A DNA stretch of 64,000 nucleotides from Lishizhenia tianjinensis (GTDB taxonomy: Bacteria; Bacteroidota; Bacteroidia; Flavobacteriales_D; Crocinitomicaceae): NCBI RefSeq assembly GCF_900116425.1, contig NZ_FPAS01000002.1:266537-330536 (forward strand), given 5' to 3'. The position numbers were made by a program, and so were the translations under genes. The notes beneath the pieces are model-generated. The model searched no databases, was not told the DNA's origin, and saw only the letters and a list, made by a program, of their open reading frames with translations. Every line of letters begins with the position of its first letter. Within the stretch, counting starts at the first letter, position 1. Of the stretch, positions 34,952-60,562 are shown piece after piece.

Positions 34952-36157
34952 CTATTGAATAGCAACACGTTTGATCTTTGTTTCCCCTCTCGTTACTTTA
35001 AATCCAGCGGCAATTAAATAATCTTCGATTTCCTTGGCTGTCATATCATAGAGTTTACCTCTATCTATCCCTTTGTTTAAAAGTGTGTAATTCAAGTATT
35101 CATCTTTCATGGTATACACTTCTCCACTTTTATTTTCTAAGTGCTTTAAGAATACGCTAAAAGGCGTGTATAAATAATAGGTGCCTTCCATCACACTGTC
35201 GTTGTGAATTGCTGTATGCGGTAAGCTATCAATGGAAAGTTCGTTTTGTACCGCAGTGTACTTTTCCCATTTTACTTGTACTCCTAAGTTCTTTTCTAAT
35301 TGAGAAATAATAGCTGCAGTAGCCTCTTTCTGATTGGTAGAAGTAGCGTTGAAAACTAAATCATAGGCAGTGGTATCGCCCGAAAGATCGTTTACATAAA
35401 CCTCCGACGGTAAGTTGTAGATTTCAGATATGATGGTCTTCAAGGTTGCACCGTGAAAAGTAACTTTAGCTGTATCTCCCTTAAACAGCATTTTGTTTCC
35501 GTAGTACCCAGGCGCTAAAGAAGGTCTTAACACTTGTTGTTGCAAAGCTGTTGGCATGTCTTTGTTGTCTCCATGCGCTAAAAAGTAGGCCGTTCTGTAC
35601 AATGGATCTTCTCCCGCTAAATAACCTCTGTAGGGTAAAGCTTCTTTTTCAGAGGTGTTTTCTTTTTGGGCTTGTTCTAATTTTCCTTTGGCCAAAATTT
35701 CAACCAAATCTTCTTTGGTTAAGTGGTGGGTTTGGTGCACTACCTTTCCTTCAGGATTGATAACGTAGACCTGAGGAATAGCAGTTATTTTGTAGTTTTT
35801 AAAATCTTCTCTGCTTTCATTTACACCTATCCAAAAGTTGTAATTGGTATGCTTTACAAAATTTTCAACCTTTACCAACTTCTCAGTGCTGATTGCTAAA
35901 AACTGTACGTTTTGATCTTTGAATTCTGTATATAACTTGTCCATTTTTGGAAAGGAAGCTACACAAGGAGAACACCAAGTAGCCCAGAAGTCAAGCACTA
36001 CGTATTTCCCCTTTAAACTCTCTAATGTTGGGTTCACCTTATCGGCTTTATTAAATACGTGATCTACATGAACCTCAGGGGCAACTGCTCCTATTTCTAA
36101 TTGTGCATTTGCACTCAATGCAAAGCAAAAACCTAATATTCCTAGCAATTTTTTCAT
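34952..36157 (-). CDS. TlpA-like thioredoxin-fold protein with C-terminal DUF3738-like domain, paralogue 1
   Basis: 401 residues from the ATG at 36157, where the signal peptide MKKLLGILGFCFALSANAQ starts; an upstream in-frame start would lack a signal. The thioredoxin/AhpC-TSA domain (about 22-165) has the active-site pair in DFWATWCSPC (Cys about 73 and 76) and the cis-Pro segment AIPQVYVINPEGKV. The C-terminal region (about 235-400) has the pattern of DUF3738-like domains (LKTIISEIYNLPSEVYVN, YDLVFNATSTNQKEA, LEKNLGVQVKWEKY). Probably a periplasmic thiol reductase or disulfide handler. A paralogue with the same layout lies at 60664. A weak -7 box (CATCTTTG) ends 5 bases before the start. 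Confidence 0.8.
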   Translation of the reverse strand: MKKLLGILGFCFALSANAQLEIGAVAPEVHVDHVFNKADKVNPTLESLKGKYVVLDFWATWCSPCVASFPKMDKLYTEFKDQNVQFLAISTEKLVKVENFVKHTNYNFWIGVNESREDFKNYKITAIPQVYVINPEGKVVHQTHHLTKEDLVEILAKGKLEQAQKENTSEKEALPYRGYLAGEDPLYRTAYFLAHGDNKDMPTALQQQVLRPSLAPGYYGNKMLFKGDTAKVTFHGATLKTIISEIYNLPSEVYVNDLSGDTTAYDLVFNATSTNQKEATAAIISQLEKNLGVQVKWEKYTAVQNELSIDSLPHTAIHNDSVMEGTYYLYTPFSVFLKHLENKSGEVYTMKDEYLNYTLLNKGIDRGKLYDMTAKEIEDYLIAAGFKVTRGETKIKRVAIQ

Positions 36158-36241
36158 GGCCGCAAAGATGCGAAAAATGTAAGTTTTGTAGGCTTGAGAA
36201 GCTGGCGTAAAATCAGAAAGACTTGTAAAGCTATTAAGGTG

Positions 36242-36384
36242 CAAACGGCCGGGCCATCCATTTTAGTCCCCCTAAAAATTACCAAACAAGACTAAGGCCA
36301 GGTAGCACTTCCGCTGGTCGTACTCCCTTGCCCAATTCTTGCTAGTTACTTTTTAAGGGGCGCAGCCATTGCTGTCCCTGTTTG
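36242..36384. repeat. 143-bp covarying hairpin element, copy A
   Basis: Begins CAAACGGCCGGG and ends TCCCTGTTTG, with the ends complementary. The stem 27-42 pairs with 104-119 (CCCC-TAAAAA against TTTTTAAGGGG, two or three mismatches), and inner stems continue to a loop holding CACTTCCGCTGGTCGTA. It aligns over all 143 bases without a gap to 45992-46134. Confidence 0.8.
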
Positions 36385-36465
36385 GGGTGTAGATTGGAAA
36401 ATGGAAATTGGAGATTTTATAAGGGATTTTGCTTGTCGCTCGGTACCCAAGCTTGAGAATTTTAC

Positions 36466-36486
36466 TGACTACCCGCAATTCTATCC
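36466..36486 (-). repeat. 21-bp repeat copy 1
   Basis: Exact match to the consensus TGACTACCCGCAAT...CTATCC on the plus strand. I use '-' for copies reading TGACT first and '+' for copies reading GGATAG first. Confidence 0.9.
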
Positions 36487-36548
36487 TAAACAATTCAAAA
36501 TTATTAAGTCAAAATTCAAAATAAAAGATGGTTAGTAGAGAGTTTTAC

Positions 36549-36569
36549 TGACTACCCGCTATTCTATCC
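36549..36569 (-). repeat. 21-bp repeat copy 2
   Basis: One mismatch (CGCTATT for CGCAATT). Same orientation as copy 1, 83 bp further on. Confidence 0.9.
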
Positions 36570-36681
36570 CGTCGAGGATTCAAAGATTAAAAGTCAATAT
36601 TCAAAAACTAAAGAGCTTACTAAAATTCGTAGCAATTCACCAAGAAGTCACGTAAAGGTCCCTCAAATCTTTCAAATTCAC

Positions 36682-36702
36682 TGACTACCCGCAATTCTAT
36701 CC
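36682..36702 (-). repeat. 21-bp repeat copy 3
   Basis: Exact match, same orientation as copies 1 and 2, 133 bp beyond copy 2. Confidence 0.9.
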
Positions 36703-36795
36703 CAAGTAGATTAGAAATTAGAAATTGGATATTTGAAATTCCAGTTTAGATATAAGGTCGCTCGAAGTTTTCGAATTTAAAGGGTGTGAATTCAA

Positions 36796-36830
36796 TAAAA
36801 AAAGTGATACACTTCTTTGCGCATCACTTT
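36796..36830 (-). terminator. Terminator of the thi operon
   Basis: On the minus strand AAAGTGAT pairs with ATCACTTT and runs into T residues, just after the thiH stop. Confidence 0.8.
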
Positions 36831-36839
36831 CTTAGATTT

Positions 36840-37946
36840 TTATTGTAGACTCAAGTCCCAGTCTTTAAAGACCGGTTCGTAGCCTTGTTGTTTTATGACT
36901 TCTATGAAGGTTTCCGTTGAACGTTTATCATCAATTTCGAATTGTTCTAGGTTTACCTCTGGGTTGGCATATCCTCCAGGGTCTGTTTTAGAATCGGCAG
37001 AGATACTCGTGATTCCCAACTTTATAATATTGTTTCTAAAGGTTTCCGACTCTCGGGTTGACATACTTAACTCTACCTCTTGATTAAATATTCTGTAGGC
37101 ACATATGAGTTGTACTAATTCTCTATCTGTCATAACCGATTTCAACTCAATTCCTCCTGCACATGGTCTTAAACGCGGGAAGGAAATGGAATATTTAGTT
37201 TTCCAATAAGTACGTTCTAAGTAATCTAAATGAGCGGCGCAATAGAAAGTATCTGTTCTCCAATCTTCTAAACCGAAAAGTACTCCGAGTCCCATTTTGT
37301 GGATGCCTGCTTTTCCTAATCTATCGTGGGTATCCACACGGTAATCAAAATTCGACTTTTTCCCTTTAGGGTGATGGATTTTATAATCGTCCTTGTGGTA
37401 AGTTTCTTGATAAACCAATACCGTATTAAGACCTGCAGCAATTAACTTTTCATAATCTTCTTGGTCGAGCGGTTGCACTTCCATGGCAATATGAGAAAAG
37501 TAAGGTTTGATCAGTTCAATTGCATTTAAGAAATAATCCACCCCCACTGTTTTGTTGGCTTCACCAGTAACAATAAGAATGTGATCGTACCCCATGGATT
37601 TGATGATTTTAACTTCAGCTAAAATCTCTTCATCTGTTAAGGTTTTTCTGTCGATTTTTACATCTAAACTAAACCCACAGTAGGTACAAATGTTCTGGCA
37701 TTCATTCGAAAGGTACATAGGGATGTACATTTGAATGGTTTTCCCAAAACGCTCTTGGGTAAGCTTCTGACTCAAAGCTGCCATTTGCTCTAGATAAGGT
37801 GCGGCAGCAGGAGAAATCAAGGCTTTGAAATCTTCTAAATCACGCTTTGGTTTGCTTAAAGCACGTTCAACATCCTGTGCGGTTTTGTTATAAATACTCG
37901 CCTTTGTGCTGTCCCAATCTATCTTGTTAACTTCTTCTTTGAACAT
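36840..37946 (-). CDS. thiH: 2-iminoacetate synthase ThiH (radical SAM)
   Basis: 368 residues. A radical SAM cluster motif CxxxCxxC is seen in CQNICTYCGF (Cys about 83, 87, 90), placed after an N-terminal helix region as in ThiH. ThiH cleaves tyrosine to dehydroglycine and p-cresol, giving the glycine-derived part of the thiazole of thiamine. ThiG then uses it. Motifs VTGEANKTVG, EVQPLDQEDYEKL and SISADSKTDPGGY are typical. Last gene of the riboswitch-controlled operon, 18 bases after thiG. Confidence 0.95.
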   Translation of the reverse strand: MFKEEVNKIDWDSTKASIYNKTAQDVERALSKPKRDLEDFKALISPAAAPYLEQMAALSQKLTQERFGKTIQMYIPMYLSNECQNICTYCGFSLDVKIDRKTLTDEEILAEVKIIKSMGYDHILIVTGEANKTVGVDYFLNAIELIKPYFSHIAMEVQPLDQEDYEKLIAAGLNTVLVYQETYHKDDYKIHHPKGKKSNFDYRVDTHDRLGKAGIHKMGLGVLFGLEDWRTDTFYCAAHLDYLERTYWKTKYSISFPRLRPCAGGIELKSVMTDRELVQLICAYRIFNQEVELSMSTRESETFRNNIIKLGITSISADSKTDPGGYANPEVNLEQFEIDDKRSTETFIEVIKQQGYEPVFKDWDLSLQ

Positions 37947-37964
37947 AGCTCCCTTTCTTTTTAA

Positions 37965-38726
37965 TTAATCCGCTAAAAAACTAGTCAATGGACTACTTGC
38001 TACAGCTGTGTTTTGTATTCCACCTAGTTTTGCTTCGTATGCCATTCTTCCTGCCTCTACTGCTTGTTTAAAAGCAATGGCCATTTTAACAGGATCACCT
38101 GCAACAGCAATTGCCGTATTCACCAAAACAGCGTCAGCTCCAAGTTCCATAGCCTCAGCTGCATGAGACGGTGCACCCAAACCTGCATCAACAATAATGG
38201 GAACCCTTGATTGATCCACAATGATCTCAATGAAATCACGTGTTCTCACCCCTTTGTTTGAACCAATAGGTGCTCCCAAAGGCATGACAGCTGCAGTACC
38301 TGCATCTTCTAAATGCTTACACAAAACTGGGTCTGCATGTATGTAAGGTAGAACGATGAAACCTTTTTTGGCCAATTCTTCTGTAGCTTTTAAAGTTTCA
38401 ATAGGATCTGGCATTAAATATTTTGGATCAGGGTGAATTTCCAATTTCACCAAGTTCGTTTCCAAAGCTTCTCTGGCCAATTCTGCTGCAAAGACTGCTT
38501 CTTTCGCATTTCTTACTCCCGATGTATTCGGTAGTAAATTAAATTGTTTATGGTTCAAATGACGTAAAATTCCGTCGTTTTCGTTTTGAACATCCACTCT
38601 TTTTAAAGCAACTGTTACCAATTCAGAACCACTTGCCAAAAGTGCTTCTTCCATCAATTGGTTACTACTGAATTTACCTGTTCCAGTAAATAAGCGCGAC
38701 TGAATTTCTATATCTCCTAATTTCAT
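37965..38726 (-). CDS. thiG: Thiazole synthase ThiG
   Basis: 253-residue TIM barrel that condenses deoxyxylulose phosphate, dehydroglycine and the ThiS thiocarboxylate to thiazole phosphate. Family marks seen: [11 protein letters not shown] near residue 12, VALKRVDV with the Schiff-base lysine (about K42 in this segment; the catalytic one is in [15 protein letters not shown] near 96), [10 protein letters not shown] near 128 and the phosphate loop [23 protein letters not shown] near 180. Five bases separate it from thiE. thiS and thiF are not in the window. Confidence 0.95.
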
Positions 38727-38731
38727 ATTCC

Positions 38732-39421
38732 TTAAATTATTGGTGATGTTTCTTTGGCATTTTGTTCAACAAGATCTACAATTTCTTCTATAGATTCAAG
38801 GTCAAAATTGGCCTTGTGTATGAGTCCCGATAAAGCAATTCCGTACACTCCTGTTTGCATAATACCTTTTACATCTTCTTTTTCTATTCCACCTATAGCG
38901 AAAATTGGTGTATCTATATGTTGAGTTTTTAAACGTTCGATGCAAGAAGCATAGCCTCGTAGTCCCAAAGCTGGACTCAATTTGTCTTTATCTTTGGTAG
39001 TCGTAAAGGTATAAGGACCTAAACCGATGTAGTCTAAAATAGCCGTGTTATAAGCTAAAATGTCATCGTAAGCATTGGCAGTTGCGCCAACTATTTTTTG
39101 ATCCCCCAAGAAATTACGCACCACCTCATGAGCTTCATCTTCTTTACCTATATGGGCTCCATCTACATTGGCTTTGATGGCAAAACTGTAGTGATCATTA
39201 ACCGTAAGTAAAACTCCAAGGGATTTACATTTTTCGGCTATGCGAATTAACGTCTCTGTAAAAAATGAAGTATAATCTGATCCAGGATGACGCGCTTCGA
39301 AATGATTTTTCTTAATGCGAAGTTGTACCCATTTGATTCCGCCTTTAGCCAATCTGTCTATCCAGCTTAAATCGCTGAAATTCTCATCGGGATGTGTAAT
39401 GTATTGAATGCGCGGTAACAT
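38732..39421 (-). CDS. thiE: Thiamine-phosphate synthase ThiE
   Basis: 229-residue TIM barrel that couples the pyrimidine and thiazole halves into thiamine phosphate. Visible: WVQLRIKK (about 31), [24 protein letters not shown] (about 90-113) that binds the pyrimidine diphosphate, and [12 protein letters not shown] (about 150). The last segment [12 protein letters not shown] marks the phosphate site. First gene of thiEGH, 76 bases behind the TPP riboswitch. Confidence 0.93.
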
Positions 39422-39469
39422 AATTTCCTACAAATAATAAGGGGGATTCTTCTAGAAAAAGTGCCGCAG

Positions 39470-39488
39470 AAAACCTTGGGGTACCAAG
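39470..39488 (-). promoter_or_regulatory. Possible riboswitch expression platform
   Basis: On the minus strand CTTGG-TACC-CCAAG followed by GTTTT could be the terminator switched by TPP. The stem is only 5 bp, so this is tentative. Confidence 0.35.
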
Positions 39489-39496
39489 TGACTGTG

Positions 39497-39589
39497 AACT
39501 TTTTCCCTACGTCAGCCTTAACTGCCTCAGGTTCGAAGAGTATTTCTCAGAATTTCACTAAAAATTAGTAAAAGACACCCCTAAAAGTT
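39497..39589 (-). ncRNA. TPP riboswitch (THI element) of thiEGH
   Basis: Read on the minus strand: P1 AACTTTT...AAAAAGTT, then GGGGTGTC, the CTGAGA element (complement at 39545-39550), the ACCTGAGG segment (39525-39533) and the closing GACGTAGGGA (39504-39513). These are the invariant parts of TPP aptamers in the right order. It lies between a -7 box and thiE. TPP binding would be expected to shut the operon. Confidence 0.93.
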
Positions 39590-39594
39590 TGATA

Positions 39595-39602
39595 CAAAGG
39601 TA
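39595..39602 (-). promoter_or_regulatory. -7 promoter box of thi operon
   Basis: TACCTTTG on the minus strand. The expected start of transcription falls right at the 5' edge of the riboswitch. Confidence 0.6.
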
Positions 39603-39695
39603 GGAGTTGTTTTGGAGATAGCAAAGGGTTGAGGGATTCAAAAAAATAAAGATTTGAGAAATTGAATTTTTGTCGGAAAGGGGCATGCCTTTTTC

Positions 39696-39716
39696 TGACT
39701 ACCCGCAATTCTATCC
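39696..39716 (-). repeat. 21-bp repeat copy 4
   Basis: Exact match, left end of the 162-bp unit. Confidence 0.9.
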
Positions 39717-39836
39717 CAAATAGAAATTTGATATTGGAAATTGGAGATTTGAAATTAAGTGATACTCATATGTTAACTATAAATGCTGGAATTCTCCAAT
39801 TTTGAATTTTATTTTTTGAACTTTGAATTCTCACTG

Positions 39837-39857
39837 GGATAGAATTGCGGGTAGTCA
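39837..39857 (+). repeat. 21-bp repeat copy 5
   Basis: Exact inverted match, right end of the 162-bp unit, upstream of dusB. Confidence 0.9.
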
Positions 39858-39938
39858 ATGAAATTAGTTTGATTTTTAGAAAGTTGTCGTTTAAACAACT
39901 CGTTTTCAATTCTTTTTCTTGGTTCCTAATAAAATCTG

Positions 39939-39946
39939 TAACTTTG
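39939..39946 (+). promoter_or_regulatory. -7 promoter box of dusB
   Basis: TAACTTTG, perfect TAnnTTTG. It lies 20 bases before the TTG start at 39967 and excludes the upstream in-frame start at 39919. Confidence 0.6.
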
Positions 39947-39966
39947 CCCCCTCAAATACAAAGACT

Positions 39967-40962
39967 TTGGCAAAAATACGCGACATAGATTTAGGAGATT
40001 TTCCTTTGTTATTGGCACCCATGGAGGACGTGAGTGATCCGCCCTTTAGAGCTTTATGTAAAAAGAATGGGGCTGATTTGATGTACACAGAATTTATTTC
40101 TTCTGAAGGATTGATTCGTGATGCGGTGAAAAGTGTAAAGAAACTGGATATTTTTGAATACGAACGTCCGGTTGGGATACAGATTTTTGGGTACGACATA
40201 GAAAGTATGAAGCGTGCGACAGAAATTACAGAGCAAACCAACCCAGATATTATCGATATCAACTACGGATGTCCGGTAAAGAAGGTGGCGTGTAAAGGAG
40301 CTGGAGCAGGTATTTTGCAAGACATTCCTAAGATGGTTAGAATGACGGAGGAAATTGTGAAAACAACCAAACTTCCTGTAACCGTTAAAACCCGTTTGGG
40401 ATGGGATGACAACTCTAAGCACATTGTTGAAGTAGCTGAGCGTTTGCAAGATGTAGGAATAGAAGCAATTTCTATACACGGAAGAACGCGTAAGCAAATG
40501 TACAAGGGTGAGGCAGACTGGAGTTTGATTGCAGAGGTGAAAAATAACTCAAGAATGCACATTCCTGTTTTCGGAAACGGAGATATAGATTCACCAGAAA
40601 AGGCTGTAGAATACAAAAACAAGTTTGGTGTTGATGGTATAATGATAGGTAGAGCAAGTATAGGATATCCATGGATATTTAATGAAATTAAGCACTACCA
40701 GAAGACCGGACAACACTTGCCAAAACCGACGATTAAAGAAAGAGTAGCTGTTACACGTGAGCACTTAGAGATGAGTATCAAATGGAAAGGTGAAACATTA
40801 GGTATCGCAGAAATGAAACGTCACTATACGAATTATTTCAAAGGTATACCTCACTTTAAAGATTACAGAACTAAGTTGGTGACTTCTTTTAATTTGGAAG
40901 AAATTAGAGCCATTTTGGAAGAAGTTGAAGTGAAGTTTTCTGGTGTAGAGACTTTAGTTTAG
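39967..40962 (+). CDS. dusB: tRNA-dihydrouridine synthase (DusB-like)
   Basis: 331 residues from a TTG codon (reading AKIRDIDLGDFPLLLAP after it). FMN-dependent TIM barrel that reduces uridines in tRNA. Marks: LLAPMEDVSDPPFRALC (about 14-30), the catalytic loop NYGCPVKKVACKGAGAG (Cys near 100), TVKTRLGW (about 142), SIHGRTRKQMYKG (about 170) and the FMN phosphate site GNGDI/GIMIGRASIGYPW (about 205-235). A start at 39919 is possible but lies upstream of the promoter box, and close family members begin at the point chosen. Substrate position within tRNA is inferred from DusB relatives. Confidence 0.92.
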   Translation: MAKIRDIDLGDFPLLLAPMEDVSDPPFRALCKKNGADLMYTEFISSEGLIRDAVKSVKKLDIFEYERPVGIQIFGYDIESMKRATEITEQTNPDIIDINYGCPVKKVACKGAGAGILQDIPKMVRMTEEIVKTTKLPVTVKTRLGWDDNSKHIVEVAERLQDVGIEAISIHGRTRKQMYKGEADWSLIAEVKNNSRMHIPVFGNGDIDSPEKAVEYKNKFGVDGIMIGRASIGYPWIFNEIKHYQKTGQHLPKPTIKERVAVTREHLEMSIKWKGETLGIAEMKRHYTNYFKGIPHFKDYRTKLVTSFNLEEIRAILEEVEVKFSGVETLV

Positions 40963-41024
40963 CTTCTCAAAAAGGGATAGGAGCGGCAGTTTTTGACGTA
41001 GAAAGACATATGAAACTTAATAGA

Positions 41025-41052
41025 GAAGGGCGCCCAGAGGTAGCCCTTTTGT
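41025..41052 (+). terminator. Probable terminator of dusB
   Basis: AAGGGC/GCCCTT stem with a short T-run. Weaker than the others in the window. Confidence 0.55.
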
Positions 41053-41117
41053 ATTTTAGTTGAATGGCTTTTTAGGTTGAAAGCTACAGCGGAAAGCCCG
41101 GTGAAAAACGGAGTTTT

Positions 41118-43028
41118 TTATTTTGCCACCATCCACTCTTCGTACCACATTTGAAACATCAAAAGGTACCACATCTTGAAATCGAGTTCTTTTTTACCTG
41201 CGTAAAAGTCGCGTTTCATTTTCTCTACTACTTTCCAATTAAAGTAGCCTTGCTGACTAATTTTTTCTTCGGATATATAATGATTGACGTGTTCTTTTAG
41301 CTCTTTCCACATCCATTCGGCAATAGGAATAGCAAAACCTTGTTTGGGTCTTTCCATCATTTCTTTTGGAAGATAGTCGTGTACAATTTCTTTTAAAATG
41401 TGCTTTTTGGTTCCCTTATGGTATTTAAATTCGTCTGGTAACTGGGCTGCATATTCCGCAATACGATGATCTAACAGCGGTTCTCTGCCTTCTATGCTGG
41501 CAAACATGGTAGCTCTATCTACTTTTGTAAGGATGTCGTCAACCAAATAGGTTTGGAAATCGATAGCCTGCATGTAGGCCAAAGGAGAAAAATGAATTTT
41601 TGACAACTCGTTGCTCGTGTACAAAGTATCCAAAGGTTTTATATGGGTTTTCATCAATTTGCTTACCTGAGCATCTGTAAACTGCTGACTCAAACTTAGC
41701 ATGATAGCTTCGGCATTTGGATTGCGAAGTATACCCTTCATTTTCTCATAACGATTGTGGAAGTTGTATTTATGCTTGAAGTAAGGGAGAGCGTTGGAGG
41801 GGATGAGATCCATTACACCAGCCATAGCTTTACCTGCTATTTGAGGAAGTTTTTCCAATTTGGGCAGCATTTTGAGCAGATAGTCGTAACGGTTATAACC
41901 CGCAAATATCTCGTCGCCACCGTCTGCGCTCAGGGCTACGGTAACTTTTTCACTTGCCATTTTACTGACCAACATTGTTGGTAAAGCACTGCTATCCGCA
42001 AAAGGTTCATCATAATGATAAGGTATTTTTTGAATTAAAGCTAAGGCTTCATTCGCTGTACATTGAAATTCGTGATGATCCGTGCCTAAATAATTTGCTA
42101 CCTCGTTTGCAAAAGGCGCTTCGTTGAGTCCTATATCGGGAACGCCTATGGTAAAAGTCTTAAGTTGCTGCGTATTATTGGCTTGTAAAATAGAAGTGAC
42201 AGCCGCCGAGTCATAACCTCCACTTAAGAAAATTCCTACAGGAACATCAGAGCGCATTCTATAATGAAAGGCAGAAGTCAATAAACTTTTCGTCTCCTCT
42301 TTGGCTTGTTCAAAAGAAATATTCTTCTTGGGTTTGTTGTAGTAATCGTAAATGTTCCAATACTTTCTCTGAATCAGTTTTTTTGTATTAATATCGAGCA
42401 TGAAATACTCCCCGGCTCCTAGTTTTCTAATATTTTTAAAGATAGAATGTGGGGATGGAATGTTTCCGTACTGCATATAAGCAGCCAAACTGTTCAGGTC
42501 AATTTCCTTTTCAAAATCGGGGTGTTTGTGAAACACTTTAAGCTCTGAAGCAAAGAGGAATAGGTTTTCTTTTTGGTAAATGAAAAATGGTTTTACTCCA
42601 GCTCTATCGCGAGCAGCAAAGATGTGTTGCTTGTTTTCATCATAGATTACGAAGGCAAACATACCAATGAACTTATCCAAGCATTTTTCACCCCATTGCT
42701 GGTAGGCGTGAAGTAAAGTTTCTGTGTCGGAATGAGTGTTGAACAAATGTCCCAGCCTTATTAACTCTTTGTTGATCTCCTCGAAATTGTAGATTTCTCC
42801 GTTAAAGATGAGTGTGAGATGACCAAATTTCATAGGTTGTTTCCCTGCATCTGAGAGATCCAGAATGGAAAGTCGTTTATGACCCAGTCCCAAACAAAAC
42901 GCTTCTTTTTGAACTAACTCAAACCCTTCACCGTCTGGTCCACGGTGGTGGAGGGTACGGGTCATGGCTTGAAGGGTGTTCAAGGAAGAAGTTTTGGTGT
43001 AATCAAGAAAAGCAGCGATACCACACAT
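41118..43028 (-). CDS. asnB: Glutamine-hydrolysing asparagine synthase
   Basis: 636 residues. An N-terminal class II glutaminase domain starts at the catalytic Cys2 (MCGIAAFLDY) with HRGPDGEGF near 30 and LIFNGEIYNFEE near 73. The synthetase half holds the PP-loop LSGGYDSAAV (about 258) and the YDEPFADSSALPT segment (about 340). It makes asparagine from aspartate with ATP, or acts in glycan/antibiotic amidation in some gene clusters. Monocistronic, with a 21-bp repeat unit just upstream. Length suits the AsnB-1 type of Bacteroidota, slightly longer than E. coli AsnB. Confidence 0.92.
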   Translation of the reverse strand: MCGIAAFLDYTKTSSLNTLQAMTRTLHHRGPDGEGFELVQKEAFCLGLGHKRLSILDLSDAGKQPMKFGHLTLIFNGEIYNFEEINKELIRLGHLFNTHSDTETLLHAYQQWGEKCLDKFIGMFAFVIYDENKQHIFAARDRAGVKPFFIYQKENLFLFASELKVFHKHPDFEKEIDLNSLAAYMQYGNIPSPHSIFKNIRKLGAGEYFMLDINTKKLIQRKYWNIYDYYNKPKKNISFEQAKEETKSLLTSAFHYRMRSDVPVGIFLSGGYDSAAVTSILQANNTQQLKTFTIGVPDIGLNEAPFANEVANYLGTDHHEFQCTANEALALIQKIPYHYDEPFADSSALPTMLVSKMASEKVTVALSADGGDEIFAGYNRYDYLLKMLPKLEKLPQIAGKAMAGVMDLIPSNALPYFKHKYNFHNRYEKMKGILRNPNAEAIMLSLSQQFTDAQVSKLMKTHIKPLDTLYTSNELSKIHFSPLAYMQAIDFQTYLVDDILTKVDRATMFASIEGREPLLDHRIAEYAAQLPDEFKYHKGTKKHILKEIVHDYLPKEMMERPKQGFAIPIAEWMWKELKEHVNHYISEEKISQQGYFNWKVVEKMKRDFYAGKKELDFKMWYLLMFQMWYEEWMVAK

Positions 43029-43094
43029 ATGAGGGTAAATATAGGGGATGAGGGGGAGAATTGATGGGTGGTATTAAACTTTTTCGATCAAAAT

Positions 43095-43958
43095 TTACTG
43101 ACTACCCGCAATTCTATCCTTTGTCATTAATAACTGATAAACGAAAACTTTGAATTTGGGTGTCAATGAGTGCCTATTGTTGTACTTGAAACAATATTCA
43201 TCCATGACTCCTTGCATGAAAACGATAGAGACATTATGATAAATCCCCCTAAGTTCTTTAATGAAGTTGGTTTTTAATTTTTGCTCCCATGTTTTCTTAA
43301 TTTTCGCTCCGTTTAGAACTATAAATTCCTTGTTTAAAGTAGTGGGTTTTGAAACGTTTTCAGCAAAAAGTTTTTTATACCTATAATTTGGATTGAGAAG
43401 TCTATGGGACTTCAATTTAAATACTTCTTTGACATCATTTGACGAAAGTGTTAACCGGATTCTGTCATAATTTTTAAAGGGTTGTTTTAGGATTTGCAAA
43501 TCAATATTTTGTGGAATTCCCGGGAGATCAATTATGCTCTCTGTTTCACGTTTTTCAAAGTGTAGAAGTGTTTTAGGTTGGTCTAATAACTGTTTGTTTA
43601 TCTGTCCCATTTCAAGACGTAATTTTTTTACAGCATAAGCAAGCGTATCGTAGCGAGTTTGTCTCGATTTTCGTAGAAGGTTCAATACAGAATCTGTCTT
43701 TTTTCCTTGTGTTATTAGGTAGATAATTTCTAGCCAATCTCTTAATTGAAGGTTACTGTCTCTCATGAAAGAAACAGATTTTATACTGATGATTTTCTTA
43801 CACTTCGGACACCTCCATGATTTAAGGTGCATGTAGAATTTAAGTGAATGGTGCTTGCATTTTGGACAACATTTAACTCTGTACTGAAAGATTTCTTTGA
43901 AAAAAAGTACTGCATTTTCTTCGCGGTTATAGCGACCGTAAAATTCTGATTGATTCAT
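43095..43958 (-). CDS. IS1595-like transposase-related protein lacking a visible DDE triad
   Basis: 287 residues. The N-terminal third matches IS1595/ISXO2 transposases: a zinc ribbon (C31xxC34 and C50xxC53), the following KKIISIKSVSFM stretch and a WLEIIYLITQGKK ... SRQTRYDTLAYAVKKLR helix-turn-helix (to about 115). The C-terminal part also fits (TWEQKLK near 223, ELRGIYHNVSIVFMQGVMDEYCFKYNNR, 235-262). The middle (about 120-220) should hold the acidic DDE/DDN triad but shows no VDEtyfG-type motif, no TDG and Lys where the last Glu is expected. The last seven residues, DRIAGSQ, are coded by the bounding 21-bp repeat, and the stop lies just outside it. It could be an inactive transposase, a diverged active one, or a DNA-binding derivative. 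Confidence 0.65.
   Translation of the reverse strand: MNQSEFYGRYNREENAVLFFKEIFQYRVKCCPKCKHHSLKFYMHLKSWRCPKCKKIISIKSVSFMRDSNLQLRDWLEIIYLITQGKKTDSVLNLLRKSRQTRYDTLAYAVKKLRLEMGQINKQLLDQPKTLLHFEKRETESIIDLPGIPQNIDLQILKQPFKNYDRIRLTLSSNDVKEVFKLKSHRLLNPNYRYKKLFAENVSKPTTLNKEFIVLNGAKIKKTWEQKLKTNFIKELRGIYHNVSIVFMQGVMDEYCFKYNNRHSLTPKFKVFVYQLLMTKDRIAGSQ
43099..43119 (-). repeat. 21-bp repeat copy 6
   Basis: Exact match. Codes the C-terminus of the transposase-like protein on the minus strand. Confidence 0.9.
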
Positions 43959-44018
43959 GATTTTTAGTGTTAGGTTGATAGTATAAAAGTTACGACTTTT
44001 TAGCCATATATAAAAAAG

Positions 44019-44039
44019 GGATAGAATTGCGGGTAGTCA
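44019..44039 (+). repeat. 21-bp repeat copy 7
   Basis: Exact inverted match 60 bases upstream of the transposase-like start codon. Confidence 0.9.
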
Positions 44040-44155
44040 GTAAATATTCCTACAATCTTGAAATTTCTTTGACTTCCAACTCCACATTCCGTTAAAATTC
44101 ATTCTCTTTCCGCATTTATCAACCCTTCCACTACCATCACCTCATTTTTATGACT

Positions 44156-44163
44156 TATCTTTG
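44156..44163 (+). promoter_or_regulatory. lysS: -7 promoter box of lysS
   Basis: TATCTTTG, perfect TAnnTTTG, 49 bases before the ATG. Confidence 0.5.
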
Positions 44164-44212
44164 CAAATTGTTAAAACAAGTAGTACATAATTGTATTTAA
44201 AAGAGTTATCAA

Positions 44213-45925
44213 ATGAGTCTTATTGAACTTTCAGACCAAGAGATTCAGCGTAGAGAAACGTTGAAAAAATTGAGGGATTTGGGAATTGACCCATATCCTG
44301 CAGCACTGTACCCTGTGACGCACAAATCTTCTGAGATAAAGAACAATTACAAGGAAGGTGAAAAGGTTGTAATCGCGGGTAGATTAATGCGTCGAAAGGT
44401 TCAAGGTAAGGCCTCTTTTGGTGAGTTGCAAGATGCTGACGGAAGAATTCAAGTGTACTTTAACCGTGATGAAATTTGTCCGGGAGAAGATAAAAGCTTG
44501 TACAACGATGTTTTTAAAAAGTTGTTGGATTTAGGTGATTTCGTTGGTGTTGAGGGAGAAGTATTTAAAACACAAGTGGGAGAGACAACAGTTTCTGTTA
44601 AAAACTTTACTTTGTTAAGTAAGTCTTTGAAACCACTGCCACTTCCAAAAACGGATGCAGAAGGTAAGGTACACGACGCTTTTACAGATCCTGAATTGCG
44701 TTACCGCCAGCGCTATGTTGATTTAACAGTAAATCCACATGTCAAAGAAATTTTCGTGAAGCGTACAAAGTTGTTTACAGCGATGCGTAACTTCTTTAAT
44801 GATGCTGGATACATGGAAGTTGAAACGCCTGTTTTACAGTCAATACCAGGTGGAGCGGCAGCGCGTCCGTTTATTACGCACCACAATGCACTGGATATTC
44901 CATTGTACATGCGTATCGCCAACGAATTGTACTTGAAGCGTTTAATTTGTGGTGGATTTGATGGTGTTTACGAGTTCTCTAAAAACTTCAGAAATGAAGG
45001 GATGGATAGAACGCATAACCCTGAGTTTACGGCTATGGAAATCTATGTTTCATACAAAGATTACAACTGGATGATGGATTTCACAGAGCGTTTGTTAGAA
45101 CACTGTGCAATTGCTGTGAACGGAACTACTGAAGCTACTTTTGGAGAGCATAAGATAGATTTCAAAGCACCTTATAAGCGTGTAACTATGCGACAATCTA
45201 TTATCGATTTTACAGGGTTCGACATCAAAGGTAAAACGGAAGATGAGTTAAGAGAAGCATGTAAATCAATGGGAATTGCCGTTGACGATACAATGGGTGT
45301 TGGTAAATTAATCGATGAGATTTTCGGAGAGAAATGTGAAGGAAACTACATCCAACCAACGTTCATTACAGATTACCCAAAAGAAATGTCTCCACTGTGT
45401 AAAGAGCACAGAGAAGATCCAAGTCTTACTGAGCGTTTTGAGTTGATGGTGTGTGGTAAAGAAATTGCGAATGCATATTCAGAATTGAACGACCCTATCG
45501 ACCAAAGAGAGCGTTTTGAAGATCAAGTACGTTTGGCGCAAAAAGGAGATGATGAAGCTACAGAATTCATTGATCAAGACTTCTTAAGAGCGCTAGAATA
45601 TGGTATGCCGCCAACATCAGGATTAGGAATTGGTATGGATAGGTTGATTATGTTCTTAACCAATAACCCGGCAATTCAAGAAGTGTTGTTCTTCCCGCAA
45701 ATGAGACCTGAGGTTTTTGGAGCAAAGAAGGGACCAGAGTTGAATGAGAACGAAAAGTTAATCTTTGATCTATTGGCTAAAGCTCAGAAAATGGATTTAA
45801 ATGAGTTGAAAGAACAAACTGGTTTATCGAACAAGCAGTGGGATAAAGGAGTGAAAGGTTTGGCAAAACATGGTTTAACGAAAGTTACAAAAGAGGAAGA
45901 TCAATTAACGATAGAATTGGTTTAA
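44213..45925 (+). CDS. lysS: Lysine--tRNA ligase, class II
   Basis: 570 residues. An N-terminal OB-fold anticodon-binding domain (about 50-150, VVIAGRLMRRKVQGKASF) is followed by the class II core: motif 2 FRNEGMDRTHNPEFTAMEIY (about 261-280) and motif 3 GLGIGMDRLIMFLTN (about 468-482). About 60 further residues (LLAKAQKMDLNELKEQTGL ... LTIELV) form a winged-helix-like extension absent from E. coli LysS, which I know from Bacteroidota enzymes. Monocistronic with promoter and terminator. Confidence 0.97.
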   Translation: MSLIELSDQEIQRRETLKKLRDLGIDPYPAALYPVTHKSSEIKNNYKEGEKVVIAGRLMRRKVQGKASFGELQDADGRIQVYFNRDEICPGEDKSLYNDVFKKLLDLGDFVGVEGEVFKTQVGETTVSVKNFTLLSKSLKPLPLPKTDAEGKVHDAFTDPELRYRQRYVDLTVNPHVKEIFVKRTKLFTAMRNFFNDAGYMEVETPVLQSIPGGAAARPFITHHNALDIPLYMRIANELYLKRLICGGFDGVYEFSKNFRNEGMDRTHNPEFTAMEIYVSYKDYNWMMDFTERLLEHCAIAVNGTTEATFGEHKIDFKAPYKRVTMRQSIIDFTGFDIKGKTEDELREACKSMGIAVDDTMGVGKLIDEIFGEKCEGNYIQPTFITDYPKEMSPLCKEHREDPSLTERFELMVCGKEIANAYSELNDPIDQRERFEDQVRLAQKGDDEATEFIDQDFLRALEYGMPPTSGLGIGMDRLIMFLTNNPAIQEVLFFPQMRPEVFGAKKGPELNENEKLIFDLLAKAQKMDLNELKEQTGLSNKQWDKGVKGLAKHGLTKVTKEEDQLTIELV

Positions 45926-45944
45926 TTCTAAAAAGATATAAAGC

Positions 45945-45977
45945 AAAGTCCGATACGTAAGTGTCGGACTTTTTTTA
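45945..45977 (+). terminator. Terminator of lysS
   Basis: AAGTCCGATA/TGTCGGACTT stem followed by a seven-T run. Confidence 0.9.
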
Positions 45978-45991
45978 TGCTTCTTCCTTGG

Positions 45992-46134
45992 CAAACGGCC
46001 GGGCTAACCATTATAGTCACCAATAGCTAGTTTAAGTCGCAATTTGCCCCACAATCACTTCCCCTGGTCGTAATTGTAGTGCATTGCTTACTAAAAACTA
46101 GCCATTGGTGAGCTGCCATTATTATCCCTGTTTG
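45992..46134. repeat. 143-bp covarying hairpin element, copy B
   Basis: Same ends and loop as copy A (CAAACGGCCGGG, CACTTCCCCTGGTCGTA, TCCCTGTTTG). The stem here is CACCAATAGCTAGTTT against AAACTAGCCATTGGTG with one mismatch, quite different in sequence from copy A but paired at the same positions. Confidence 0.8.
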
Positions 46135-46158
46135 AGAAGCTTTTACATTTTTATTTAT

Positions 46159-46179
46159 TGACTACCCGCAATTCTATCC
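46159..46179 (-). repeat. 21-bp repeat copy 8
   Basis: Exact match, left end of the 163-bp unit, 25 bp after hairpin element B. Confidence 0.9.
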
Positions 46180-46300
46180 CACCATGAATTTAAAATTCAA
46201 AGATTAAAAATTTAAAACTCATGACACCCTTGTTTTTCTGGTGTTTAGATGTAATAGTGAAATTTTAAATATCCAATTTTCAAGATCAAATTTAGACTTA

Positions 46301-46321
46301 GGATAGGATTGCGGGTAGTCA
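46301..46321 (+). repeat. 21-bp repeat copy 9
   Basis: One mismatch (GGATAGGATT for GGATAGAATT), right end of the 163-bp unit. Confidence 0.9.
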
Positions 46322-46433
46322 ATGGTTCTATGTTTTTTTAATCCATAAATCTTGCTACTTGCGAGAATCCACATTTTTTATTCAATAAAGGCGCCTTAAC
46401 TTTATACCAATCAAAATCATAAAAAACCTAACC

Positions 46434-47111
46434 ATGAAAACGCTAAACATTGTAACCGTCTTAATTTTTTCCATTTTGTTGGTGAGTTGTGCTACCACAC
46501 CAGAATTTAACAAGAGAAAATATACGAAAGGAAGATTTCGAATTCCACACAATTTGAAAAAGCACAATGCAAAATCAGATGAAAAGGACGAATTGAATAT
46601 CATCCATGAAATCAAAAGAGAGGAAAACGGTTCTAAGGATTTGAAAATTCTTCATTCATCCAAAAAAACGACAATACCCAATAAAACAGAACAAAGGAAG
46701 AGAGAGGTCGAATTTACTGTTGAAGGTGTTACTGATGCTAAAAGAGAAGCACGTAGAATAGAATTTGAAAAGGATAGTAAAAAGAAAGTTTCTAGTAAAG
46801 AAGATGTAATTTCCGAATTAATTAATGAATTGAATGACTCAGAAGAACCTCAAAAAAATAAAACGGAATCAAGAGCAAACTTAGCTTTGGTGTTCGGGTT
46901 GTTAAGTTGGGCAGGCTTCTTTTATCCATTGTTTTTTCTTTTCAGTTTTGTTGGATTCATTTTTGGAATTTTCACACTGACGGCCACAGATTATACAAAG
47001 AAGGATAGAAATAGAGCTCTTTTTGGTATAGTCACTTTTATCCTGTTAACCTTAGTTTTTTCCTTCTTTCTTATAAAGTTACTTTGGATTGATGCCTTCT
47101 TTATTTTTTAA
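46434..47111 (+). CDS. Lipoprotein with C-terminal membrane segments, tandem paralogue 1
   Basis: 225 residues. The signal peptide ends in a lipobox (ILLVSC, Cys about 19) and is followed by the motif TTPEFNKRKYTKGRFRIPH, shared almost unchanged with the next gene. The middle (about 45-145) is charged and probably disordered. Two to three hydrophobic helices (about 147-225) close the protein and resemble a DUF4190-type tail. A lipid anchor plus C-terminal helices is an unusual combination: either the N-terminus is a third membrane anchor, or the protein spans the periplasm. I know the KRKYTKG motif from Bacteroidota lipoproteins without assigned function. Confidence 0.72.
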   Translation: MKTLNIVTVLIFSILLVSCATTPEFNKRKYTKGRFRIPHNLKKHNAKSDEKDELNIIHEIKREENGSKDLKILHSSKKTTIPNKTEQRKREVEFTVEGVTDAKREARRIEFEKDSKKKVSSKEDVISELINELNDSEEPQKNKTESRANLALVFGLLSWAGFFYPLFFLFSFVGFIFGIFTLTATDYTKKDRNRALFGIVTFILLTLVFSFFLIKLLWIDAFFIF

Positions 47112-47211
47112 CTGAAGAATACTCGAACAGGGTAAGGCTCTCATATCGATTAACAACTAAATTTTTGAAACACAACGCTGTGATTTAATTGCAGCTAAAT
47201 ACCTAACTGTC

Positions 47212-47901
47212 ATGAAACTACTTAATATTATAGCTTTAATGGTTACGACTATGCTTATCATAAGTTGTGCTACAACACCAGATTTTAATAAGAGAAGGTA
47301 TACGAAGGGCAAATTTCGTATACCGCATACCCTAAAAAAGTATAAGGGCGAAAAAGAAAAAGTAATCATCCCAATCAAGGATATTGAAAAAGTACCTGCC
47401 TTCAGTACAGATTCTATCTATGAATATCAATATTCAAGGGGGAAGGAGATAGAAGAGGCTACCGTGAATAAAGAATATACAATCCGAGGTAGTAGTAATT
47501 ATAACACGGCCTTAAGTGAAAATAATCAACCTGCTGAAGTCACTTTAGATGTATATGAAGAGGAGGAACCTCAACCTGAAATTATTGTTGCAAATAATGA
47601 TGATAGTTTATTTGTTGAAATGACCGATGAGGAAGTTTCTGCAGCATTATCGGCAGAGAAAAAGGCAAAAGCGGGTTTAATACTAACAATAATTGGAGGA
47701 ATATTACTCTTTGGTATTTTTACAACCTTACTTGGCTTCCTCATCATGTTTATAGGATTGATTTTTTCCATTTGCTCGTTAGTTTCAACTTATAACACTC
47801 GAGAGGGAAGAAGAAAAGCATGGGCAAGCATGATACTATTTTTTGTTTTCCCCATACTCGCCTCAGGGTTAATAATTATCTCTTTTCTGCTCTTCTTTTA
47901 A
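47212..47901 (+). CDS. Lipoprotein with C-terminal membrane segments, tandem paralogue 2
   Basis: 229 residues, same layout as its upstream neighbour: lipobox LIISC (Cys about 19), TTPDFNKRRYTKGKFRIPH, an acidic variable middle (about 50-145, QPAEVTLDVYEEEEPQPE) and C-terminal helices (about 150-229, AGLILTIIGGILLFGIF and FLIMFIGLIFSICSLVSTY). The N-terminal 40 residues are close to identical in pattern, while the middle is not alignable by eye. This points to an old duplication with fast divergence of the linker. The 3' end meets the end of mfd without a gap. Confidence 0.72.
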   Translation: MKLLNIIALMVTTMLIISCATTPDFNKRRYTKGKFRIPHTLKKYKGEKEKVIIPIKDIEKVPAFSTDSIYEYQYSRGKEIEEATVNKEYTIRGSSNYNTALSENNQPAEVTLDVYEEEEPQPEIIVANNDDSLFVEMTDEEVSAALSAEKKAKAGLILTIIGGILLFGIFTTLLGFLIMFIGLIFSICSLVSTYNTREGRRKAWASMILFFVFPILASGLIIISFLLFF

Positions 47902-51234: not shown

Positions 51235-51636
51235 CTTAAAAATAAATTTGGGTTTCCCCGTAATGCTTGTAAAACGATTGGGCCTCAAATATAAGAAGTA
51301 AAAAGAGAAAGCTTAAGACACGTGGTTTACAAGATGATTTTTTGTGAAGGAATCAAAGAATTGTAAAAAGAACTATTTTTTCTTGATTGGTCGCATAATT
51401 GCCAGGTAGAACATCCCTTTAAAATAAGGGGTTTTCTATCGAATCATGAGAGGGGTAGTGACTAATTCATGTATTAGTTTTAAGAATATCTAAAATTTCA
51501 ATAAAGTTTTATTGTGAAAGATTGGCTGGAGATTTAGTAATTTCAGCTGTTTTAGCTTTTGGCAAACATGCGACTAATCAAGGTTTGAAATTCAAAAAAA
51601 TCCAAAACTCAATTCAATAATCACGCATTATTCTCC
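51235..51636. other. 400-bp intergenic region between mfd and ABC exporter
   Basis: Contains the mfd promoter and an unassigned hairpin (CCCTT-TAAAAT-AAGGG then TTTT, near 51416-51432). No gene supported. Confidence 0.5.
51286..51293 (-). promoter_or_regulatory. mfd: -7 promoter box of mfd
   Basis: TATATTTG on the minus strand, perfect TAnnTTTG, about 51 bases before the ATG at 51234. Confidence 0.5.
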
Positions 51637-59081: not shown

Positions 59082-60386
59082 ATGAAGAGAAGACCACGCG
59101 TACTAATATTGACATATTATTGGCCACCCAGCGGAGGAGCCGGGGTACAGCGATGGTTGAAATTCGTAAAACATTTACCAGATTTAGGGTACGATCCTGT
59201 TGTCTACACTGTAGAGGATGGGGAGTACCCTTCTGAAGACTACGGACTTTTTAAAGATGTTCCGGAAGGACTAGAAATCATCAAAACTCCAATTTGGGAG
59301 CCTTATGATTTGTACAAAAAGTTCATAGGTCAAAAAAAGGAAGAAAAGGTAAATGCCGGATTCATATCCGAGAACAAAAAATCAAGTAAACTTCAAGATA
59401 TTGCCGTTTGGTTAAGAGGGAATTTGTTCATTCCAGATGCCCGAAAATTCTGGATCAAACCTTCGATTAAATACTTGATGAATTACCTTAGAAGCAGACC
59501 TGTTGATTTGGTAATTTCTAGTGGTCCGCCCCACAGTATGCACTTAATTGCGCAAGAATTAAAGCACAAACTCGAAATTCCGTGGATAGCAGATTTTAGA
59601 GATCCATGGACCAATATAGATTTCTACAAAGACCTAAAGTTGAGCAATTGGGCGGATAAAAAGCACAAACGTTTGGAAAAAGGTGTTTTGACGAAATCTG
59701 ACAAGGTTATTACTGTAGGACCAACCTTAGCCCGAGAGTTAGAAGAACTTGGAGCCAAAGATGTTAAGGTCATTACCAATGGATACGATCAGGATGATTT
59801 TGTAACAGATCCTGTGAAGGTGGATGAGAAAATCAGTATCGTGCACATAGGGTCTATGAACAAGGATAGAAACCCTGAGAACTTGTGGAAGTACCTTGGT
59901 AAACGTGTGAAAGCTGATGCAGATTTTGCAAATAAACTTGAAGTCCGTCTGATTGGTAAAGTGGATATCGCCGTTTTAGAGTCTTTAGAAAAAGAAGGGT
60001 TAAATGCCTACCTCAACAAAATAGAGTATTTGGCCCACAGTGAAGTGGTTGCTGAACAAAAAAGAAGTAAAGTCCTTCTTTTGGTGGTAAACAATACACC
60101 GAATGCTTTGGGTATTTTAACAGGTAAAATGTTTGAGTACATGGCCGCAGAACGACCCATTTTAATGATAGGTCCAAAAGCTGGAGACGCCGCAAAAATT
60201 ATTGACCAAAACTACGGAGAGGTATTTGACTTCGAAGACCAAAACTTCGATGCTTTCTTCAATCAAGATTTCAGTGCACTTAAGTACACCTCAGATCCTA
60301 AAGACTACGAACGCAAGGCCCTTACCCAAAAGTTAGTTACGGTGATGGATGAACTCATCGCAGCCCACAAAGAAAGTCTGGGATAG
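59082..60386 (+). CDS. Glycosyltransferase, GT4-like
   Basis: 434 residues of GT-B form. The N-terminal half starts RVLILTYYWPPSGGAGVQR, the usual nucleotide-free acceptor side of GT4-type enzymes. The middle has VISSGPPHSMHLIA and WIADFRDPWTN (about 150-180). The C-terminal half carries VHIGSMNKDRNPENLW (about 262) and KMFEYMAAERPILMIG (about 348), which binds the sugar nucleotide. Probably adds a sugar to a surface polysaccharide in the cytoplasm. Cotranscribed with alaS by spacing. Its TAG stop codon lies inside a copy of the 21-bp repeat, so the last residues (SLG) may have been changed by that insertion. Confidence 0.87.
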   Translation: MKRRPRVLILTYYWPPSGGAGVQRWLKFVKHLPDLGYDPVVYTVEDGEYPSEDYGLFKDVPEGLEIIKTPIWEPYDLYKKFIGQKKEEKVNAGFISENKKSSKLQDIAVWLRGNLFIPDARKFWIKPSIKYLMNYLRSRPVDLVISSGPPHSMHLIAQELKHKLEIPWIADFRDPWTNIDFYKDLKLSNWADKKHKRLEKGVLTKSDKVITVGPTLARELEELGAKDVKVITNGYDQDDFVTDPVKVDEKISIVHIGSMNKDRNPENLWKYLGKRVKADADFANKLEVRLIGKVDIAVLESLEKEGLNAYLNKIEYLAHSEVVAEQKRSKVLLLVVNNTPNALGILTGKMFEYMAAERPILMIGPKAGDAAKIIDQNYGEVFDFEDQNFDAFFNQDFSALKYTSDPKDYERKALTQKLVTVMDELIAAHKESLG

Positions 60387-60401
60387 CATTGCGGGTAGTC
60401 A
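60381..60401 (+). repeat. 21-bp repeat copy 10
   Basis: One mismatch (GGATAGCATT). Supplies the TAG stop of the glycosyltransferase gene. Confidence 0.88.
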
Positions 60402-60411
60402 AGGAATCTGA

Positions 60412-60463
60412 ATATTTAAAGATTTAAGCACCGACTAGCGTCGGTTATTTAAAATTTAAAGAA
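60412..60463. repeat. AT-armed palindromic repeat, copy 2
   Basis: ATTTAAAGATTTAAGCAC, then the stem CCGAC-TAGC-GTCGG, then TTATTTAAAATTTAAA. Aligns with the reverse complement of 9021-9070 with a different but paired stem. Lies between repeat copies 10 and 11. Confidence 0.6.
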
Positions 60464-60541
60464 TTACTTATTCAGAACTAATACTGTTACTGCTGTAATC
60501 TCGAATCTCAAATCTCCAATTTCGAATTTCGAATTTATTTG

Positions 60542-60562
60542 GGATAGCATTGCGGGTAGTCA
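60542..60562 (+). repeat. 21-bp repeat copy 11
   Basis: Same variant (GGATAGCATT) and same orientation as copy 10, 161 bases further on, so this pair is a direct rather than inverted repeat. Confidence 0.88.

Follow-up and report, generated by a model that had tools for sequence, protein, structure and literature searches.

IS1595 elements usually generate 8-bp target duplications and encode a transposase with an N-terminal zinc finger and a DDE domain, according to sections of PMC8101967 and of the description of ISApl4 (PMC12561309). RAYTs are domesticated transposases that occur as single copies and are inherited vertically; in REPINs, which are inverted pairs, the spacers vary greatly (parts of PMC8049555). 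In TldR, transposon nucleases have become RNA-guided transcription factors (excerpts of PMC13418256). The words IS1595 and RAYT were not found by a word search in the available text of a review of recruited prokaryotic mobile elements (PMC8987985), and no title on core-less IS1595 families stood among the best full-text matches of our literature search, which reached few subscription papers.

The gene described here lies in a 64-kb stretch of the Lishizhenia tianjinensis genome, called the window below, and has the zinc ribbon, HTH region, C-terminal part, single gene and terminal repeats of an IS1595 insertion sequence (compare sections of PMC8101967); unlike these elements, its family lacks the DDE/DDH set and the 8-bp target duplication. 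As in the RAYT/REPIN system, a transposase-derived protein has been kept together with inverted pairs of short repeats with diverse spacers (in eight units of one repeat group, group II), and in G031 and G165, two species of one genus, the genes appear to be inherited vertically. However, the ancestry is IS1595 rather than a tyrosine (Y1) transposase, the window genome carries 17 copies rather than one, and each gene has private, often local repeats. Small non-coding units with terminal inverted repeats recall MITEs, but their interiors in the window genome are mostly not alike and target duplications are absent. A transposon protein reused as a DNA-binding regulator, putatively in the present case, also recalls TldR (excerpts of PMC13418256), whereas no RNA guide was seen in the window family and specificity appears to be set by fixed DNA repeats.

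We interpret the window gene, with a probability of roughly 55%, as a core-less descendant of an IS1595-type transposase that is now a resident sequence-specific DNA-binding protein, in an arrangement like that of RAYTs and REPINs with DDE ancestry. The 17 intact core-less relatives with private repeats suggest that an enzyme has been turned into a family of DNA-binding proteins. The initial annotation had offered two alternatives, of which the transposase-derived DNA-binding protein fits best; a diverged active transposase fits less well and keeps some probability because relatives moved recently in two other genomes.

The gene occupies window positions 43095-43958 on the minus strand (stop codon included) and encodes a protein of 287 aa, P0001, assigned from the open reading frame and its translation, the NCBIfam match and the alignment of catalytic columns. 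It is bracketed by two identical, inverted 21-mers, one at 43099-43119 (plus strand) at the 3' end of the gene and one at 44019-44039 (minus strand) at the 5' end, and the former encodes the final seven residues, DRIAGSQ; the perfect unit ends and the coding of the last seven residues by the repeat had both been described correctly. Along the minus strand, the protein comprises a zinc ribbon at residues 28-56 (C31, C34, C50 and C53; 43791-43877), based on a Pfam match and cysteine conservation; residues 68-123 (43590-43757), the part matching the NCBIfam IS1595 model, which we take to be an HTH region, a label carried over from the initial annotation; a central region without the catalytic segments at residues 124-223 (43290-43589), defined by alignment and profile comparison; and a conserved C-terminal part at residues 224-265, from W224 to KYNNR (43164-43289), defined by paralogue conservation and profile comparison. 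A leader motif, TAACTT ... TCAACCTAA, common to the paralogues, lies at 43970-43992 on the minus strand. As scored, TAACTT is found upstream of the start in 15 of 17 paralogues and a CAACC box in 16 of 17, and L008, scored from an upstream start codon, fails both; TAACTT resembles a Bacteroidetes -7 box.

Taken alone, P0001 has a partial similarity to IS1595 that stays under the curated cut-offs: the Pfam zinc ribbon matched with E = 0.0097, and the NCBIfam IS1595 model (NF033547) with E = 8.3e-9 and 35.6 bits against a cut-off of 75, over residues 68-123 only. When a profile of the 17 paralogues was compared with a profile of intact relatives, the match probability was 100%, in line with the earlier assignment of the zinc ribbon, HTH and C-terminal part to IS1595. 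A structure prediction (AlphaFold2, 10-sequence alignment) gave pLDDT near 26 for residues 126-224, and a control on the same ten loci with an intact relative placed first gave 26-47 in ten-residue blocks over residues 121-280. The core was thus poor in target and intact control alike, so neither prediction is informative on the fold.

The catalytic columns were read on an alignment of 70 proteins. In the intact sister group, the first aspartate (D1) lies in a D-E/D/N-x-F/Y motif and is followed by D2, H as the third residue and then a conserved N; the third residue is S in intact L098, L239, L099 and L126, and more distant IS1595 rows carry D-D-E. None of the 17 window-genome proteins in this alignment has D1, D2 and H/E together, which bears out the earlier remark that no DDE/DDN triad could be seen, and the N after the third column is kept in all 17. 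L007, L013 and L016 each have a lone D in one of the three columns; of the acidic residues, only E13 and E254 are the same in all 17 proteins, and D165 is nearly so. The set is likewise missing from the five G006 proteins, with a D at the D2 position in L079, and from all G031 and G165 proteins, where L153 (G165) carries E at all three positions and some others one or two acidic residues. Partial erosion is seen in L068, L069, L065 and L070; D1 and H persist in L069 without the D2 segment, and L065 reads D, E, N. In L012, L096, L146 and L067, the match to the Pfam model DDE_Tnp_IS1595 begins only at profile position 86-114 and ends at 153; in L069, which keeps part of the core, it begins at position 2, and L002 had no Pfam match.

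The window genome (G000; 3.56 Mb, 13 contigs, 99.99% complete) contains 16 further copies that are 28-43% identical to the window protein, and all 17 are full length with no internal stops. NF033547 matched every one of them; its search of the genome gave 27 matches, all on the 17 loci and within profile positions 1-66 or 143-215, and found neither an IS1595 gene besides the 17 nor an intact IS1595 transposase. With its pieces summed, one of the 17 loci passes the cut-off of 75 (78.9 bits, C8:449 kb). The four zinc-ribbon cysteines are conserved in the paralogues, with one replaced in L015, and the Pfam zinc ribbon is over its cut-off for L096 and L146. All Pfam and NCBIfam matches were of IS1595 type, with no Y1/HUH tyrosine transposase. 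Other origins were rejected: the plasmid search gave one record at 20% identity, the phage search one PHROG of unknown function, and the defence search a PADLOC match with E = 0.0022 covering only the zinc ribbon.

Terminal repeats were found at a similar place in 15 of the 17 paralogues, with a single gene between them, and were not detectable at L005 and L009. The repeats form one motif class, about TGAnTnnnCGCAnnnTTGCC, of which each element has its own version: the distance between repeats is 0.176 within an element and 0.474 between elements, and 0 of 5000 random pairings were as low. Repeat distance follows protein distance (Mantel r = 0.68, 0/2000), but among the nine group-I elements alone the correlation fails to reach significance. 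The terminal-repeat span is 911-941 bp in the 15 elements (mean 921, SD 8).

The count of 12 sites in the initial annotation was reproduced: with no more than three mismatches allowed, the 21-mer occurs 12 times in the window and never in 100 shuffles, so a chance origin was rejected. Genome-wide, 13 copies were detected, all within C8:303002-333511 (30.5 kb around the gene), and a reversed-pattern control gave 0. Besides the two at the gene, the window copies comprise an array of three direct copies at 36466-36702 (plus strand, start spacing 83 and 133 bp), an inverted pair of 162 bp at 39696-39857 (unit A), an inverted pair of 163 bp at 46159-46321 (unit B), two direct copies at 60381-60562 (minus strand, start spacing 161 bp) and a single perfect copy at 63974-63994 (minus strand). 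The window also holds a small unit with group-II repeats, which are those of other paralogues, at 51383-51581 (C8:317919-318117; window positions were obtained by subtracting 266536). The interiors of units A and B are alike at 80 of 118 positions (z = 7.1) and their repeats at 41 of 42, an identity with p = 1.7e-6 if the repeats drifted at the rate of the interior; the two units are old copies of each other, B in reverse orientation. Segmental duplication is not favoured because the flanks and most interiors differ. An RNA hairpin is not favoured either, since by eye the two arms of a unit are about as dissimilar as arms taken from different units, and Rfam at gathering thresholds found only a TPP riboswitch in window positions 35500-47500.

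Further cognate repeats were found within 24 kb of six paralogues (L001, L003, L004, L007, L011 and L012). L003-type repeats occur in the genome only at the gene and in three pairs within 10 kb of it, and L007-type repeats in one pair within 5 kb of the gene. The group-II repeats make up 24 sites in 12 inverted pairs, which belong to four genes and eight small units (the reversed-pattern control gave 1 match); three of these units lie within 9 kb of L012 and five at least 35 kb from any group-II gene. Strict locality of the small units therefore holds for the L001, L003 and L007 types, which were searched genome-wide, and fails for group II; L004 and L011 were scanned within 668 kb. The eight group-II units are inverted pairs of 198-222 bp with repeats identical at 36-41 of 42 positions, and for the most part their interiors show no similarity beyond that of shuffled sequence (56 comparisons, highest z 3.3). 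Of the small units, arrays and solo sites, 20 were compared with ORFs of at least 90 aa: 17 overlap none, and one overlaps a gene end by 6 bp. The remaining two are an L011-type unit of 532 bp (L062:10194-10725, G000 C2:1170693-1171224), which encloses a DUF1801 gene as an apparent passenger, and the perfect solo 21-mer inside a 1112-aa ORF. In other genomes, L076 (G006) is accompanied at +5.7 to +6.1 kb by an array of four direct copies, each with three mismatches, and L152 (G031) has extra sites at -5.1 and -3.3 kb; nine intact loci, scanned up to about 10 kb on each side, had no extra site. Extra local sites thus accompany 8 of 24 core-less and 0 of 9 intact loci, a difference that is not significant (p = 0.07); the test left out L069 and L070, which were scanned and have no extra sites, and of a set of 13 retrieved stretches all but L281 and L286 were scanned.

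The initial annotation also reported no target duplication and noted that IS1595 makes duplications of 8 bp, and both statements proved accurate. At the window unit no 8-bp duplication was found (best match 5/8), and among the window genome's 30 units, genes and small units together, one reached at least 7/8, against 0.77 expected by re-pairing. The complete genome G382 carries at least six copies of an intact IS1595 relative, each spanning exactly 1000 bp (L257, L262, L266, L269, L271 and L274), and four of these six scored candidates have exact 8-bp duplications and one has 7/8. Eight further intact loci were scored, with exact 8-bp duplications at L116 and L121; the 8/8 match at L099 was not counted as it sits inside its own repeat. 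The units of the window genome are either old or were made differently. The G382 relative would be a good bench control.

Within the genus, the genomes searched covered L. tianjinensis alone, and constraint was measured between G031 and G165, which share seven reciprocal-best core-less genes at 77-84% identity. Ortholog alignments cross both flanks in six of the seven, and the right flank of L154/L157 is represented only by a displaced 275-bp piece. All seven are open in G031; in G165, L157 and L159/L163 are interrupted by runs of N. The dN/dS values are 0.10-0.25 in the seven pairs, with dN lowest in the N-terminal part in six and highest in the central part in five. Seven repeats of four pairs are conserved at 150 of 161 positions, against 818 of 1002 in neighbouring, partly coding sequence (p = 1.5e-4). 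Left out of this count were L148 and L154, in which neither end showed a terminal repeat, the 5' end of L150 (no sound alignment) and L152, whose 5' repeat is conserved at 16/19 and its flank at 109/140, and whose 3' end is misaligned at a run of N. In the tree, these proteins, in which selection was measured, are not united with the clade of the window. As a separate observation, the ends of L150 and L152 in G031 carry the repeat twice, inverted and hairpin-like, as opposed to the simple terminal repeats elsewhere.

In the DNA-binding-protein reading, the zinc ribbon and HTH would bind the cognate repeats, and protein units joined through the C-terminal part may hold two inverted sites together. 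Such paired sites would be about 0.92 kb apart at the gene, with the 5' site beside the promoter-like leader, and about 0.14-0.26 kb apart at the small units, and their pairing might lead to autoregulation and to local DNA looping or insulation. For any past movement of the units, an intact ancestor or some other source would have had to supply the catalysis. This reading is supported by the 17 open frames in which the catalytic set is gone and the N is kept, by the private repeats, the 911-941 bp spans and the conserved repeats of group II and of units A and B, and by the dN/dS of 0.10-0.25 and the conservation of repeats over flanks in G031 and G165. Several results count against it: selection was measured outside the clade of the window, five of the eight group-II units are at least 35 kb from group-II genes, the correlation within group I is not significant, and two paralogues have no detectable repeats.

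Related elements have also moved recently in G031 and G165, which counts against simple domestication. One family in G031 (X) has four 5' ends that agree at 136-140 of 140 positions inside and 13-28 of 60 outside, and another (Y) has two ends that agree at 140/140 inside and 23/60 outside; in G165, three ends agree at 99-103 of 107 positions inside and 13-15 of 60 outside. Such a repeat also marks the limit of four 3' ends in G031 and of five contig-edge 3' ends in G165 (23-105 bp visible), beyond which the flanks differ. Compared without gaps, two of six pairs of G031 3' ends agree at 146-149 of 156 positions and the other four at 57-60 of 156 owing to a one-base length difference. Near-identical copies with sharp ends at repeats and different flanks indicate recent movement; the window genome has no recent copies. 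Two residues past the conserved W, the mobile copies have K in place of the H of intact relatives. Contigs break inside the mobile elements, and D1 and D2 of these copies are therefore unseen. Beside a full X-copy 5' end in G031 (L218; C52, about 102418-102635), tandem units of about 98 bp consisting of element 5' ends precede that end, and this array resembles the window array at 36466-36702.

These mobile copies would fit two-part transposition, in which the core-less protein serves as a repeat-specific adaptor that still mobilises its own unit and the small ones, with cutting and joining done in trans by a separate enzyme. We regard this account as possible and give it a clear minority weight. 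The recent copies stop at the repeats, and their nearest relatives are core-less: among the matches listed, the mobile N-terminal fragment is closest to core-less L066/L149 (59%), and the C-terminal fragments are closest to L149 among the G165 proteins. No full catalytic set occurs among the IS1595 proteins read in seven such genomes (G000, G006, G007, G010, G019, G031 and G165). However, the mobile copies have their catalytic segments in assembly gaps, where a multi-copy helper could also have disappeared; moreover, no helper was detected, the check for one covered IS1595 proteins, and the window genome itself is without recent copies. The same movement, together with the nearly invariant D165, the invariant E13 and E254, the three E residues of L153 and the single acidic residue in one column in several other proteins, could also point to an autonomous transposase whose active site was rebuilt in the diverged centre. 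We consider this unlikely: no acidic set is common across lineages, E254 lies within the C-terminal part that intact transposases also conserve, and in five of seven ortholog pairs dN peaks in the central third. Functionless decay, that is, decaying or non-autonomous insertion sequences and MITEs, would fit the IS ancestry, terminal repeats, MITE-like pairs and absence of duplications expected of old insertions, but is improbable given that all 17 frames stay open at 28-43% identity with the window protein, that selection is purifying in the sister lineage and that the repeats evolve more slowly than their flanks.

Returning to the core-less proteins as a group, a tree of 60 proteins was built on N- and C-terminal columns, with 10 of the 70 rows omitted as partial or near-duplicate. 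The 17 window-genome proteins form one clade (98/90) and the five G006 proteins another (91/90). The label core-less was applied to 38 rows, including the partly eroded ones, L153, L231 and L250; these rows need at least four changes, and a single core-less clade was rejected (AU p = 0.0009). Several core losses in Flavobacteriales appear to be the simplest account, given that the number of changes alone cannot separate loss from gain. Multi-copy core-less groups within one genome comprise 17 members in G000, at least five in G006 and seven full-length ones in G031. With intact and core-less members counted at strict thresholds, the whole family is present in 25 of 245 sampled genomes of the order and 9 of 392 of the phylum. 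We tentatively put forward, at odds well below even, that IS1595 elements have repeatedly, by losing the DDE core, become repeat-specific adaptor elements that diversify within a genome into many families with private repeats and are still mobile through an enzyme in trans or a new active site. If the DNA-binding-protein reading is right, bacteria would have made a DDE transposase more than once into multi-copy repeat-binding proteins, with catalysis dropped and repeats kept, and one genome would offer 15 protein-repeat pairs in which to read how a transposase N-terminus specifies DNA. The mobile relatives pose a sharp and testable question: how does an element move if its own protein is seemingly incapable of cutting?

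Some minor features of the window were also recorded. The solo 21-mer at 63974-63994 encodes GIELRVV in the 1112-aa frame (C8:328526-331864, from window position 61990 on), and one search found no homologues of this stretch in plasmids. The TPP riboswitch aptamer, above the Rfam threshold, lies at 39487-39592 on the minus strand. A second, unrelated intergenic repeat is present at 36241-36384 and 45991-46134, and partly also at 40961-40989; its matching end blocks are GCAAACGGCCGGGC... and ...CCCTGTTTG, and the copies are exactly 9750 bp apart.
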